The position numbers and the translations under genes are program-made. Below, piece after piece: positions 38,623-46,428 of a stretch of 64,000 nt of DNA. The number at the start of each line of letters is the position of its first letter. Within the stretch, counting starts at the first letter, position 1. The notes below the pieces were generated by a model. That model had not been told where the DNA came from. It made no database searches and was given only the letters and a program-made list of their open reading frames with translations. The stretch is from Microtetraspora sp. NBRC 16547 (lineage in GTDB: Bacteria; Actinomycetota; Actinomycetes; Streptosporangiales; Streptosporangiaceae). The DNA lies in NCBI RefSeq assembly GCF_030268965.1, contig NZ_BSSE01000001.1, positions 124,001-188,000 on the forward strand, in the 5' to 3' direction.

Positions 38623-38742
38623 CTAGTGCCCCGACCGGCAGGATCTGCCCGGAAGGAGCGGCGTCCAGGGGGGTGCATCGCGCGGCGGCGGGGTGCCGCT
38701 CCGGGCGACGCGATGGGGCGGAGAGCGACCGCAGGGGACTAG
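38623..38742 (+). mobile_element. 120-bp MITE-like element, short form
   Basis: It begins CTAGTGCCCC and ends GGGGACTAG, imperfect terminal inverted repeats on CTAG. Its first 58 bases match the reverse complement of the right end of 45145-45361 at 52 of 58 positions, and its last ~50 bases match the other end at lower identity (GGTGCCG and GGGCGACGCGA are shared). About 97 bp of the middle are missing. The right-hand CTAG gives the TAG stop of the nucleotidyltransferase gene. No open frame is inside. Confidence 0.75.
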
Positions 38743-39470
38743 TAGCGGCAGGCGATCTCGCGAGCCTTGGTCAGGTCGTCATGGTTGTCCACCTCGACCC
38801 AGTCGACCTTGCCGATCGGAGCGACCGAGATCTTCTCGCCCCGGCCGACCATCTCCTGGTAGCCGTCCTCGTAGTAGAGCTGCGGGTCGCGCTCGAACGT
38901 GGCGCGCAGCGCGTCGGCCAGCCGCTCGGCCGCGCCGGGACGGATCAGCGTGGCGCCGATGTACTCGCCGTACGCCTCGGCCGGGTCCATCAGCTTGGTG
39001 ATGCGCTTGAGGCTGCCGCCGTCGAGGGTGACCTTCATCTCCTCGTCGGCCAGGGCCTTCACGTCGTCCACCGCGAGCAGGATGTCGCTGGTGGCCTCCG
39101 CCGACAGCAGGGTCTCCTCGACCGAGACGGGGTGCACGGTGTCGCCGTTGACCAGCAGCGCGCCCTGGGCGAAGTGGTCGCGCGCGCACCACAGCGAGTA
39201 GGCGTTGTTCCACTCCTCCGCCTTGTCGTTGTGCACGAGGGTCAGCTTCACGCCGTGCCGGCGCTCCAGGTCCGCCTGGCGGTCGTGTACGGCCTGCGCC
39301 TGGTATCCGACGATGACGACGACATCACGGAGGTCCACCGCGGCGAGGTTGCGCAGGGCGATGTCGAGGATCGTGGTCTCGCCGTCGACCGGCACGAGCG
39401 CCTTGGGCAGCGTGTCGGTGTACGGCCGCAGGCGGCGTCCGGCTCCGGCGGCCAGCACCATTCCCAGCAA
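38739..39470 (-). CDS. LicC-like nucleotidyltransferase (phosphocholine/polyol-phosphate cytidylyltransferase type)
   Basis: This 243-residue protein opens with MVLAAGAGRRLRPYTDTLPKAL, the nucleotide-binding loop and lysine of the sugar-nucleotidyltransferase fold. It has VIVGYQAQAV, NNAYSLWCARD, LVNGDTVHP and a C-terminal VEVDNHDDLTKAREI, as in LicC-type cytidylyltransferases. The TTG at 39470 is chosen because AGGAG lies 6 nt upstream; the internal ATG at 39461 is too far. The stop codon TAG is part of the CTAG end of the 120-bp element. With the dehydrogenase and CDP-alcohol phosphotransferase it could make CDP-glycerol or a related CDP-polyol. Confidence 0.85.
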   Translation of the reverse strand: MLGMVLAAGAGRRLRPYTDTLPKALVPVDGETTILDIALRNLAAVDLRDVVVIVGYQAQAVHDRQADLERRHGVKLTLVHNDKAEEWNNAYSLWCARDHFAQGALLVNGDTVHPVSVEETLLSAEATSDILLAVDDVKALADEEMKVTLDGGSLKRITKLMDPAEAYGEYIGATLIRPGAAERLADALRATFERDPQLYYEDGYQEMVGRGEKISVAPIGKVDWVEVDNHDDLTKAREIACRY

Positions 39471-43360: not shown

Positions 43361-43378
43361 GTGGGTAGGCAGCGATGC

Positions 43379-45148
43379 ATGGGGGGATCGTTCAGGGGAA
43401 GAAACGCCCTGCTCATCGGGGTCGTACTCGCGTCTTATCCGGCACTGATGGGCGCCGCGCTGTACCCGCTTCCGTGGGTCTTCGTAATCCTGGTGCCGGT
43501 GTCGTACGCCGCGGAGCTGGCCCTGCCGCCGCAGGCGACGGAGCGGCTCGGCCGGCTCCAGCTCGCGGCCACGCTGCGCTTCCTGATGCGCGAGATGGCG
43601 GCCGTGCTGCTGCTCGCCAGGACCGCCGGAGCCGAGTCCCCGTGGTTCGCCCTCCTCGCGGGCGGCCTGTTCCTGTTCCACTGGCTGCGCGCCGCCCAGA
43701 GCGCGCTGGCCACCTATCTGAACCGGTGCCACAACCTGAAGCCGGTCGCCACCAGGAACCTCGACGTCACCTTCCCGCCCGCGCCGCCTGAGACGCTGGT
43801 CAACTGGCGCGGCGCGCGTCTGCTGTACCTGGACGTGCTGCCCGTCGGGATGACCGCGTTCGGAGCGCTGACCGGGAAGGACTGGCTCGGCGCGGCCGGC
43901 GCGGCGGGCGCGCTCGCCCTGGAGGCCGCCGCCGTGCTGGCCCTGTCCGTCCACGTGTGGCGCGCCGCCCCGTTGGCCGACCGGCGGCGGGTCATCGCGA
44001 CCGTGGACCGCCAGGTCCGCGCCTACCGGCCCGAGGTGCTGCTCTACTTCTCCGGCCCGGCCGACTCGGCCTACCAGGCCACGATGTGGCTGGGCACGCT
44101 GGAACGGATCGCCAGCCGGGTGCTGGTCGTGCTGCGGGAGCGGGAGCTGCTGGCCGCGCTGGGGAAGACGACGCTCCCGGTGCTGTGCATCCCCTCGGCC
44201 GTCGACATGATGAACTTCCGCGGCCTGGACACCGCGCGGGTCACCCTGTTCGCGTCCAATGTCGGCAACAACATCCACATGCTCCGGATGCCGGGCGTCA
44301 CCAGCGTCTTCATCGGGCACGGCGACAGCGACAAGGAGGCCTCGTTCAACCCCTTCACGAAGGTGTACGACGAGGTCTGGGTCGCCGGTCCGGCCGGGCG
44401 TGACCGCTACCGCCGCGCGCGGGTGGGAGTGCGCGACGAGGCCGTCGTCGAGGTCGGGCGGCCCCAGCTCGACGGGGTGCTGCCGACCGGGCCCGGCCTG
44501 CCGTACCCGAGCGTCCTGTACGCGCCGACCTGGGAGGGGTGGACGGACGACCTGTTCCACACGTCGGTCGCCGCGATGGGACCGACACTGGTCCGGGAGC
44601 TGCTCGCCCTCGGAGTGCGGGTGATCTACAAGCCGCACCCGCTCACCGGCCACCGCTCCGCGACCGCGCGCGAGGCGCACGGCGCGATCACCCGGATGCT
44701 GCGCGACGCCGGACTCGGGGCGGCGGCCCCACCGCACCTGGTGGTGACCGGGGACGAGCCGCACCTGTACGAATGCTTCAACCAGGCCGACCTGCTGATC
44801 AGTGACATCTCCAGCGTGATCGCCGACTTCCTGGCCAGCGGCAAGCCGTACGCCGTCACGAACGTCGCCGGGCTGCCCGAGCGCGAGTTCCGGGAGCGAT
44901 ATCCGACCGCCGCGGCGGCCTACCTGCTCGGCCCGGACTGCGGCGAGCTGCCCGGAGTCGTGTCCCGGGTCCGCCCGGAGGACGACGTCCTCGCGGAGGC
45001 CCGGCGCGAGCTGAGGAGCTATCTGCTCGGGCCGGACCACCCGGACGCGCTCACCCGGTTCGACGAGGCCGTCACGGCCGCCCGCGCCAGAGCGGACGCG
45101 GGCGACGCGGGGAAAAGCCTCGCGACGGCGGGTGACGAGGTGGCCTAG
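43379..45148 (+). CDS. TagF/TarL-like CDP-polyol glycerophosphotransferase family protein with membrane N-terminus
   Basis: The protein is about 589 residues. Three to five hydrophobic helices fill the first ~200. The rest has the poly(glycerol/ribitol phosphate) transferase marks FIGHGDSDKEASFNPFTKVY, VLYAPTWEGW, VRVIYKPHPLTG and ADLLISDISSVIADFLASGK. These enzymes extend teichoic acids from CDP-glycerol or CDP-ribitol. Classical TagF has no such multi-helix N-terminus; it may tie the enzyme to its lipid-linked acceptor. Start is ATG 43379 or GTG 43361, uncertain. It directly follows the IspD-SDR gene, so donor synthesis and polymerisation are linked. Its TAG stop is the CTAG end of the 217-bp element. 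Confidence 0.87.
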   Translation: MGGSFRGRNALLIGVVLASYPALMGAALYPLPWVFVILVPVSYAAELALPPQATERLGRLQLAATLRFLMREMAAVLLLARTAGAESPWFALLAGGLFLFHWLRAAQSALATYLNRCHNLKPVATRNLDVTFPPAPPETLVNWRGARLLYLDVLPVGMTAFGALTGKDWLGAAGAAGALALEAAAVLALSVHVWRAAPLADRRRVIATVDRQVRAYRPEVLLYFSGPADSAYQATMWLGTLERIASRVLVVLRERELLAALGKTTLPVLCIPSAVDMMNFRGLDTARVTLFASNVGNNIHMLRMPGVTSVFIGHGDSDKEASFNPFTKVYDEVWVAGPAGRDRYRRARVGVRDEAVVEVGRPQLDGVLPTGPGLPYPSVLYAPTWEGWTDDLFHTSVAAMGPTLVRELLALGVRVIYKPHPLTGHRSATAREAHGAITRMLRDAGLGAAAPPHLVVTGDEPHLYECFNQADLLISDISSVIADFLASGKPYAVTNVAGLPEREFRERYPTAAAAYLLGPDCGELPGVVSRVRPEDDVLAEARRELRSYLLGPDHPDALTRFDEAVTAARARADAGDAGKSLATAGDEVA

Positions 45149-45361
45149 TGCCCCGCCCGTCAATCTTTGCCCCGTCGCGTCGCCCAGGGCGGCACCTCGC
45201 CGCGTTGTCGCCCCACCCACGAAAACTCCTCGCAGGCTCGGACTTTCCGCGGGGCCCGGGAATGTCGGCCGTAGGCTCCGCTACGACCTCCTCCTCCGCC
45301 TTGCGATGCACCACCCTGGACACCGCTCCTTCCGGGCAAACCTTGCCGGTTGGGGCACTAG
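45145..45361 (-). mobile_element. 217-bp MITE-like element, long form, with CTAG terminal inverted repeats
   Basis: Left end CTAGTGCCCC and right end GGGGCACTAG are a perfect 10-bp inverted repeat, extended imperfectly to about 29 bp (TTTGCCC shared). It lies exactly between two convergent genes and its CTAG ends provide both TAG stops (45146-45148 plus strand, 45358-45360 minus strand). No coding frame is evident. It is the fuller relative of the 120-bp element at 38623. CTAG targets are known for parts of the IS5 family, so a parent there is possible. Confidence 0.78.
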
Positions 45362-46428
45362 TCGCCCAAGTAATCCTGCGTGTAGGCCTTCTCGAGCGCC
45401 GGACGCGGCTTGCTGAGCCCGGGCGGGCTGGTCAGGAAGCCGGTGCCCCACGAGATGTGCATCGTGGCGTAGACCAGCGGCAGCCGGAGCAGGGCGGCGG
45501 CGGACAACCCGCCGCCGGTCAGCGCCGAGCCGGCCAGGACCGCCGCGAGGTACGCGCCCGGGACGAGCAGGCCGGGCCAGAAGAACGGCGAGACGACGAT
45601 GCCGAGGACCATGGCGACCACCGCGGCGGGCGGCGCGAGGTAGCGCAGGTTGATCGTCCCCTGGTGGGTGCGGGAGACCACCCGCCGCCAGCGGCCGTAG
45701 TGGAAGTACTGCTTGGCCAGGGCCCGCGCGTTCGGCCGGGGACGGTAGGACACCCGCATGCGCGGCTGGAAGAAGACCAGGCCGCCGGTCTCGCGGATGC
45801 GGTGGTTCATCTCCCAGTCCTGGGCGCGCTGGAAGTGCTCGTCGTAGCCGCCGACCCGCTCCAGCGCCTCCCGGCGGAAGACGCCGAGGTAGACGGTGTC
45901 CGCGGGGCCGGCCTGGCCGCCGGTGTGGAAGCGAGCGTTGCCGACGCCGATCTTGGAGGTCATCGCGCACGCGACGGCCTGCTCGAACGGGGTGACACCC
46001 TCGGCGGCCATGATGCCGCCGACGTTGTCCGCGCCCGTCTGCTCCAGAGTCTCGACGGCGGTGGCCAGGTAGTCGGCCGGGAGCATCGCGTGCCCGTCCA
46101 CCCTGGCGATGATCGGATAGCGGGACGCGCCGATGGCCGCGTTGAGCGCGTTTGGCGTGCGACCGGTGGGATTCGGCACGACGACGACGCGCGGGTCGGC
46201 CGCGGCGAGCGCGTCGGCGACCTCCTGCGTGCGGTCATGGGACGGGCCGACGCTGAGGACGACCTCGATGGGGCCCTCGTACTGCTGGGCGAGGACCTGC
46301 CGTACGGCTTCCGCCAGGTGCCGCTCCTCGTTGAGCACCGGCATGATCACCGAAATCGGCGGCCAGTCGCGCGTGGGCGGCTGGCTCGTTTGTGGCGAGT
46401 CGGGGAAGGGCTTCATGGCCTGGCTCAC
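45358..46428 (-). CDS. GT2 family glycosyltransferase with membrane C-terminus
   Basis: This 356-residue protein has a GT-A domain: PPISVIMPVLNEERHLAEAV, the metal site ARVDGHAMLPADYL, and the acceptor segment AQDWEMNHRIRETGGLVFFQ. Two or three hydrophobic helices near 265-330 follow. It resembles succinoglycan/hyaluronan-type transferases. The start is GTG 46428 or ATG 46416; TACAGT lies 4 nt before the GTG and may be a -10 box, which would favour the ATG. It is divergent from the second LCP gene with a gap of only 47 nt, so the two share a regulatory region. Its stop comes from the 217-bp element. Confidence 0.85.
   Translation of the reverse strand: MSQAMKPFPDSPQTSQPPTRDWPPISVIMPVLNEERHLAEAVRQVLAQQYEGPIEVVLSVGPSHDRTQEVADALAAADPRVVVVPNPTGRTPNALNAAIGASRYPIIARVDGHAMLPADYLATAVETLEQTGADNVGGIMAAEGVTPFEQAVACAMTSKIGVGNARFHTGGQAGPADTVYLGVFRREALERVGGYDEHFQRAQDWEMNHRIRETGGLVFFQPRMRVSYRPRPNARALAKQYFHYGRWRRVVSRTHQGTINLRYLAPPAAVVAMVLGIVVSPFFWPGLLVPGAYLAAVLAGSALTGGGLSAAALLRLPLVYATMHISWGTGFLTSPPGLSKPRPALEKAYTQDYLGD

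Follow-up and report, generated by a model that had tools for sequence, protein, structure and literature searches.

CTAG-flanked hairpin elements of Microtetraspora sp. NBRC 16547 probably belong to a widespread non-autonomous MITE superfamily of actinobacteria

Two short elements flanked by CTAG, 120 and 217 bp long, are present in a 64,000-nucleotide stretch of the draft genome of Microtetraspora sp. NBRC 16547 (contig NZ_BSSE01000001.1, positions 124,001 to 188,000 of the forward strand), which is called the window below. Both probably belong to a superfamily of hairpin-forming miniature inverted-repeat transposable elements (MITEs) of actinobacteria, which targets CTAG and would be moved by transposases of the IS5 type. 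Their copies, their ends and an empty site at one locus show that the elements are mobile and non-autonomous. One strand has maintained its fold, and the better-folding strand is preferentially the leading-strand template, whatever the direction of the neighbouring genes. An initial annotation, made from the letters of the window alone, had already described a MITE-like family here, and its interpretation of the two elements was partly supported.

Copies in the genome and the empty site

The presence of the elements in the window and their reported sequence features were confirmed. At 120 and 217 bp, they are too short for a transposase gene. The 120-bp element reads CTAGTGCCCC...GGGGACTAG and the 217-bp element CTAGTGCCCC...GGGGCACTAG; the 217-bp copy has a perfect CTAGTGCCCC at each end, the 120-bp copy at one end only. 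When the 120-bp element is compared by eye with the reverse complement of the 217-bp element, 52 of 58 end positions are identical and six differ, as had been stated.

The draft genome comprises 7,819,122 bases in 151 contigs. With the 217-bp element as query, 43 BLAST matches were obtained at E<=0.01; in some cases, several matches are fragments of a single copy. Of the 107 first-look candidates, 40 were scored. Thirteen matches are near full length, with 93-100% identity, and others are forms of about 166 bp from which part of the middle is gone. A degenerate end pattern occurs at 71 places, compared with one place for the reversed control pattern. Given these counts, the recurrence is not due to chance. 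Contigs C1, C24, C34, C59 and C60 begin or stop inside a copy. The further copies and the centre-deleted forms that the initial annotation expected were thus present.

The orthologous regions of three congeners (G001, G002, G003) were aligned at both element sites. The 217-bp copy is absent in all three. G003 has GTCGCCTAGTCTCC at this place, with a single CTAG where the own genome has CTAG, the element and a second CTAG; the alignment indicates that the CTAG is also kept in G001, and it is changed in G002. The empty CTAG site that was proposed as a check does therefore exist for this copy. Both convergent frames of G003 end on the single CTAG, with an overlapping TAG on each strand, after 491 and 392 stop-free codons (counted back as far as the preceding stop or the edge of the locus). 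In the own genome as well as in G003, the plus-strand protein ends in SLATAGDEVA and the minus-strand protein in GD, the latter with ordinary divergence ahead of these residues. Because CTAG is duplicated on insertion, each convergent gene keeps its stop and neither frame is altered. The 217-bp copy is a true insertion with target duplication, documented at this one site.

The 120-bp copy has a different history. It stands at the orthologous place in all three congeners, where it is diverging, and has been kept in four genomes. The insertion is old and the tip of its core is gone, and there is no sign that this copy moved recently. The suggestion that recombination between the two oppositely oriented copies could invert the CDP-ribitol/TagF genes was not borne out in this comparison. 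The order, strand and approximate spacing of both sites are the same in the three congeners, so no trace of an inversion is seen; the 217-bp copy is itself absent from these genomes.

A conserved core between differing ends

The part shared most widely is the middle of the element. A total of 111 cores were collected, of which 71 were of the short form; 58 of these remained after thinning at 95% identity and 56 after L149 and L162, whose rows were anomalous, had been dropped. A covariance model (R1) was built from the 56 cores, one of which comes from the own genome (L018). The two best matches of R1 in the window are the two elements (45159-45345, minus strand, 83.5 bits; 38639-38729, plus strand, 34 bits), followed by a third at 16.9 bits. 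In the 120-bp copy, 44 apical positions of the model are deleted. The centre deletion described in the initial annotation is therefore real, with the correction that the lost part is the apical portion of the conserved core.

The core (TGCATCGCAAGGCGGAGGAGG…CGACAACGCNGCGAGGYGC) was matched by the model at E<=1e-4 in 103 of 393 genomes and 28 of 123 genera of the class; the genomes were drawn from the class with a completeness of at least 90 requested, and the filters of such a large search lose some weak matches. In the search among relatives, distant actinobacteria matched the core only. A scan of named genomes with a 21-base pattern from the 5' half of the core (TGCRTCGCRAGGCGGAGGAGG) gave 80 loci with at least 114 stretches, in Streptomyces, Kitasatospora, Microbispora, Sphaerimonospora, Microtetraspora, Frankia, Pseudonocardia, Nocardioides, Actinomadura, Sporichthya and other genera. 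The 3' half of the core, which lies outside the pattern, followed within 190 bases in 70 of the 80 seeds, compared with 9 of 3558 control windows. Among the ten misses, four lie at a locus end and three more (L128, L138, L196) were recognised by the covariance model. Of the 111 collected cores, 51 measure exactly 67 from TGCATCGC to GAGGTGC and 21 measure 119, the 119-nucleotide core of the window family being the 67-nucleotide form with an apical extension.

The ends are specific to lineages. They include GGGGTGTCTTGTCGATCAGG, GGTCTTTCGTTTGGATCAGG, GGCGTGTCTGACAATTC, GTGCCCC and more, and both arms of a copy change together. In 42 distinct elements, preselected for good ends, 827 of 924 arm positions are complementary. 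CTAG flanks were scored in 73 elements and found at both ends of 31 and at one end of 22, compared with 28 of 3200 random windows. The typical element elsewhere is 158 bp long. Two end types even coexist in the own genome. Eight loci (L020, L023-L029) carry AGTGTTTCGTGGATCTTTGCC...GATCCACGAAACACGACCTA around the same core; they are near-identical to each other, most have CTAG or CTA outside, and they match the 217-bp element only within its bases 35-166. A typical copy would thus consist of CTAG, a lineage-specific terminal inverted repeat, the conserved folded core, a second inverted repeat and CTAG. As for carriage on other replicons, a Streptomyces element matched 49 of 72,556 plasmid records, all from Streptomyces. 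It matched none of 50,697 phage records, and the exact seed was found in no viral contig.

Several arrangements of core copies were observed in addition. In seven loci of streptomycete relatives (L137, L141, L149, L167, L186, L189, L197), a GC-rich hairpin of about 30-50 bases is lodged within the core, in its loop or an arm; these cores thus serve as insertion sites for another repeat. In G159, a gene separates a short centre-deleted element between CTAGs (L287:897-984) from a full core element downstream of it, which gives another instance of the short form found in the window. Two core copies lie near each other in the same orientation in G155 (C1:3523017-3523315) and in G194 (C1:1486383-1488301). 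At about 1550-1850 of L180 (Microbispora), the left end restarts near the right end, which looks like a tandem or nested copy.

Maintenance of a fold on one strand

RNAalifold gave 31 pairs on the 56 cores, 19 of them with double changes (14.5 in shuffles). Paired cells made up 93.4% (78.3 in shuffles). Double changes were found in 268 cells, as against 99.3 in shuffles and 26-71 when the partners were slid by 1-3 columns; the consensus fold came from the same sequences, which favours the real version over the slid ones. The covariation was 0.431 compared with 0.166 in shuffles, and none of 500 shuffles was as high. The two copies of the window fold better on opposite strands of the window. 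The 217-bp copy reaches -126.5 kcal/mol on the minus strand (z -7.1) and -93.7 on the plus strand (z -2.9), and the 120-bp copy -68.4 on the plus strand (z -3.0) and -53 on the minus strand (z -1.3).

The polarity of the fold was assessed on 102 model matches, drawn from 72 named loci (out of 80) and 28 further sources, 100 in all; they gave 98 distinct rows. Over the 31 pairs, these rows contain 2425 Watson-Crick, 438 G.U, 11 A.C and 117 other cells. The model to which these rows were aligned scores G.U above A.C, an effect that should matter little in contrasts between close relatives. Close relatives were compared in 34 disjoint pairs; single changes away from a Watson-Crick pair led to G.U in 44 cases, to A.C in 4 and to other mismatches in 19 (p=1.5e-9). 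When the pairs were redrawn and the regions counted separately, G.U:A.C was 28:3 for the outer stem, 9:1 for the invariant part and 11:0 for the apical stem. A G.U pair on one strand corresponds to A.C on the other, and the two would be equally frequent if nothing but the duplex counted. The covariation and the excess of G.U over A.C show that the fold of one strand is maintained. The polarity suggests that the core acts as a single strand, either RNA or single-stranded DNA; the two are indistinguishable here because both tolerate G.U or G.T better than A.C. Rfam, with its family-specific gathering cut-offs, gave no match in the window. In seven element loci, none of its matches fell on an element, and a cobalamin riboswitch (L079) and a sub-threshold radC match (L131) were found elsewhere in them.

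Orientation with respect to replication and genes

Seventeen genomes, chosen for their matches and mostly few contigs, contained 220 matches, 3 to 38 each. Orientation was scored against the position of dnaA for the 125 matches listed, which are the best-scoring part, in 15 genomes; G177 and G411 (4 and 20 contigs) were omitted. The G-rich folding strand has the lagging-strand sense in 88 of these 125 matches (p=5.8e-6). The genomes treated as circular contribute 50 of 63 listed matches, namely 10/10 in G406, 10/12 in G155, 14/19 in G195, 10/13 in G159, 3/5 in G390, 2/2 in G391 and 1/2 in G150. Linear or circular status was assumed from the group and the place of dnaA. Among the genomes treated as linear, the strongest lagging bias in the matches listed was found in G194 (9/11).

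Gene context was determined for 60 of 65 listed matches from five genomes (48 lagging, 12 leading), with neighbours called from frame composition. The flanking genes ran in the same direction as the G-rich strand in 53 cases and in the opposite direction in 67 (p=0.24). Among the named loci, orientation likewise had no relation to the flanking genes (13 vs 13). Lagging outnumbered leading matches beside co-directional (14:2), head-on (8:3), convergent (17:7) and divergent genes (9:0). Since the bias holds in every gene context, it is replication and not transcription that goes with orientation. Either insertion at forks or the loss of copies in the other orientation may have produced the bias. 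Replication orientation biases of several IS (insertion sequence) families have been related to contacts with the beta clamp, according to PMC5371812.

CTAG as a target and the gene ends

CTAG is strongly depleted in the window, with 13 sites compared with 79 expected from shuffles. Under a strict composition rule, a coding stop lies in at least one CTAG of 23 of the 31 named elements with CTAG at both ends; these loci contain 81 other CTAGs, of which 27 hold one. About one third of the other CTAGs in the loci of relatives thus hold a coding stop, so that insertion at a gene end leaves the protein intact. In the own genome, 18 of the 23 copies given had CTAG at both ends; by the same rule, 9 of these 18 had a stop in CTAG, compared with 1 of 8 other CTAGs of the window. 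Plasmid annotation showed an overlap of CTAG and stop in two regions.

The transposase behind the movement and rival explanations

The element would be moved in trans by DDE transposases specific for its terminal repeats, with the IS5 family (DUF4096) as the most likely source, and insertion at CTAG would duplicate the CTAG, as seen at one site. An IS5-type partner is likely, judging from ends and CTAG flanks. The DUF4096 genes examined come from the own genus and eight core-bearing genomes. Eight of 12 DUF4096 loci, from five core-bearing genomes, lie in CTAG-flanked elements with inverted ends; five of them have the same ends in G195 (GGAGTGTCTGACGGATC), and the others are L332, L337 and L335. 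L333 is flanked by CTAG and CTAA, and three further loci have no CTAG-flanked inverted ends. Another CTAG-flanked DUF4096 element is found in a congener (L262). Some of these ends recur at core elements. The end of L332 (GCGTGTCTGACAATTCG) is found at the Kitasatospora core elements L119, L129 and L132, and that of L335 (GTGTCTGACAAATG) at the congener core element L098. Another type of the IS5 family (NCBIfam transpos_IS5_3) has the end GAGGTCGCGCGG, which is also present on the Pseudonocardiaceae core element L127.

The ten IS loci contain no intact core; the best R1 hit, at 20.3 bits, is a broken core copy beside the IS in L263. In that locus, from congener G002, an IS5-family element of the transpos_IS5_3 type lies inside the broken core copy, at CTAA (L263:753-905). 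When 18 stop-free runs from DUF4096 loci were compared with the other loci by tblastn, the sole hit was in L194, more than 3 kb from its element. The features listed for five plasmid regions with partial matches included no transposase, the gene table being incomplete. In the own genome, unpaired ends and their flanks proved to be short or truncated copies, and no opposite end was found at the distance of an IS. Ten distinct CTAG-bounded segments of IS size with inverted ends were listed in the collected loci, including L287, L319, L309 and L348. Two of these were rejected as candidates. L287 is the gene between the short centre-deleted element and the core element, and L319 is an IS982-family element with unrelated ends. 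The initial annotation had called for an IS with the same terminal repeats; CTAG-flanked ISs do occur in relatives, and none with the family's own repeats was found.

Several observations speak against the interpretation favoured here. No transposon with the ends of the window family (GTGCCCC/GTGCCGTGACCGGCAAGG) was found in searches that did not include IS630-type transposases. In five genomes, where one or two core elements of each were compared, no same-genome match of core and IS5-type ends was found, and they share only the GTGTCT motif and scattered bases. DUF4096 had no match in three of the eight core-bearing genomes (G079, G177, G050). The complete S. griseofuscus genome (G060) has no pair of IS size among 52 places with the local end type. 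An IS982-family element with unrelated ends in G177 (L319:1648-2655) lies between CTAGs and shares one of them with the adjoining core element, so CTAG flanks are not confined to IS5. The site would look the same whether CTAG (4 bp) or the TA within it had been duplicated. The terminal repeats are weakly polar too, with 41 G.T vs 13 A.C in the 42 elements. Lastly, the orientation bias is not significant in the genomes treated as linear (38 of 62 matches listed in the lagging sense, p=0.098) and is reversed in G277 (4/10) and G356 (0/2), again among the matches listed. The G060 genome also contains end pairs 40-66 bp apart, which form hairpins without room for the core (for example C1:2116423-2116488, C1:3120497-3120561, C1:8519543-8519584).

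Some of these points bear on the strongest rival, in which the same family would be moved by another DDE transposase, above all of the IS630/Tc1-mariner type, with duplication of TA only. CTAG at both ends and a single CTAG at the empty site fit it equally well, and both the genomes in which DUF4096 had no match and the IS982-family element between CTAGs are in its favour. A title in the reference list of PMC2170065 names an IS630-associated transposon that prefers TA in 5'-CTAG-3'. Against it, the CTAG-bounded transposase segments with core-like ends are DUF4096 loci, most of which were fetched for DUF4096 while IS630-type genes were not searched. Such a transposase appears unlikely, though it deserves serious attention.

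Movement of a single strand, as in the repetitive extragenic palindromic (REP) sequences and bacterial interspersed mosaic elements (BIMEs), by a Y1 (HUH) transposase acting on the folded strand, is improbable. The strand-polar fold and the orientation by replication agree with it, as does the replication-linked behaviour of IS200/IS605 described in PMC5371812 and PMC6006769. However, the better-folding strand is the leading-strand and not the lagging-strand template, and the elements have long terminal inverted repeats and a duplicated palindromic target. Neither of the latter is known as a feature of the Y1 (HUH) mechanism. Finally, hairpins kept for the host as bidirectional terminators or small RNA genes are very improbable: the strong fold, the position at gene ends and the retention of the 120-bp copy in four genomes would suit them, but presence and absence at an orthologous site, near-identical copies at many sites, the patchy distribution and the lack of any relation between orientation and flanking genes do not, and the last of these rules against a terminator or read-through function.

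A MITE superfamily with a conserved core, most likely moved by IS5-type transposases, is the best explanation of both window elements. Polarity and orientation may keep the strong hairpin off the exposed lagging-strand template, or they may reflect insertion at forks. A more far-reaching idea can be put forward only tentatively. The core could be a selfish single-strand device, a structured RNA or single-stranded DNA hairpin, which is joined to varied IS-type ends and borrows the matching transposases. G.U pairs would let one strand fold without a perfect DNA palindrome, and copies would be placed or kept off the lagging-strand template.

Layout of the window elements

The positions of the elements and their parts are collected in Table 1. 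The gene context given in the initial annotation, in which the two copies flank the CDP-ribitol/TagF part of a glycopolymer cluster, was corrected. The 120-bp element lies next to an NTP-transferase gene (38739-39470, minus strand) and an Fe-ADH-type gene. The neighbours of the 217-bp element are a TagF-like Glyphos_transf gene (43361-45148, plus strand) and a GT2 glycosyltransferase gene (45358-46428, minus strand).

Table 1 Features of the two CTAG-flanked elements in the window
Feature	Position	Strand	Remarks
120-bp element	38623..38742	+	Old centre-deleted member; G-rich structured strand is +
Left CTAG of 120-bp element	38623..38626		From sequence
Right CTAG of 120-bp element	38739..38742		CTA is the stop of the NTP-transferase gene (TAG, minus strand)
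217-bp element	45145..45361	-	Insertion without counterpart in 3/3 congeners; G-rich structured strand is -
Left CTAG of 217-bp element (one target copy)	45145..45148		TAG 45146-45148 is the stop of the TagF-like gene
Right CTAG of 217-bp element (second target copy)	45358..45361		CTA is the stop of the GT2 gene
Left terminal inverted repeat arm, 217-bp element	45149..45173	+	TGCCCCGCCCGTCAATCTTTGCCCC
Right terminal inverted repeat arm, 217-bp element	45333..45357	-	TGCCCCAACCGGCAAGGTTTGCCCG on -
Conserved hairpin core with apical extension of about 51 bases, 217-bp element	45159..45345	-	Match of covariance model R1

Comparison with known systems

REP/BIME sequences and the REP-associated tyrosine transposases (RAYTs) form a known system of small palindromic repeats in many copies, as in the core family. 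The hallmark of REP/RAYT is a GTAG-type tag beside a short palindrome, together with a tnpA(REP) gene. The core family is unlike REP/BIME in its long inverted repeats, its duplicated CTAG and its different conserved core, and its tag is CTAG and not of the GTAG type. IS200/IS605 elements, which are related to REP/RAYT, are tied to the replication fork, as described in PMC6006769. GTAG/CGTC-tagged REPs are the subject of PMC3733652, in which neither CTAG nor Streptomyces occurs.

Two MITEs of other bacteria show likenesses. The whole transcript of QMITE2 of Coxiella burnetii is predicted to fold; its direct repeats measure 7-9 bp, compared with CTAG here (PMC10969869, excerpt). Neither Streptomyces nor Actinobacteria occurs in the text of that review. 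For MITEPsy1 of Pseudomonas syringae, a possible origin from ISPsy2 (IS5 family) was suggested by its authors, which resembles the IS5 link proposed here (PMC3189936, excerpt). The same excerpt reports well-conserved copies in one genomospecies only and describes no structured core across differing ends. An earlier description of the core elements, including the letters of the core, was not found in open-access papers.

Further counterparts are the IS5-family DUF4096 elements themselves (L332, L335, L337, L262 and the five G195 copies). They have CTAG on both sides, measure about 0.95-1.1 kb, and some of their ends resemble those of core elements in other genomes. They differ in that they carry a transposase gene and no core, and none has the ends of the window family.

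The usual view of a MITE is that of a single IS with an internal deletion, in which the ends matter and the middle does not. Here, the conserved part is the middle, across 28 sampled genera, while the ends differ between the lineages read. This raises the question of what a MITE core does and whether hairpin DNA escapes loss through its polarity and its orientation relative to replication. A further question is why insertion into CTAG, a palindrome able to provide a stop codon on each strand, does no harm between convergent genes. The core itself also offers a way to flag unannotated repeats in genera that are used for antibiotic discovery.
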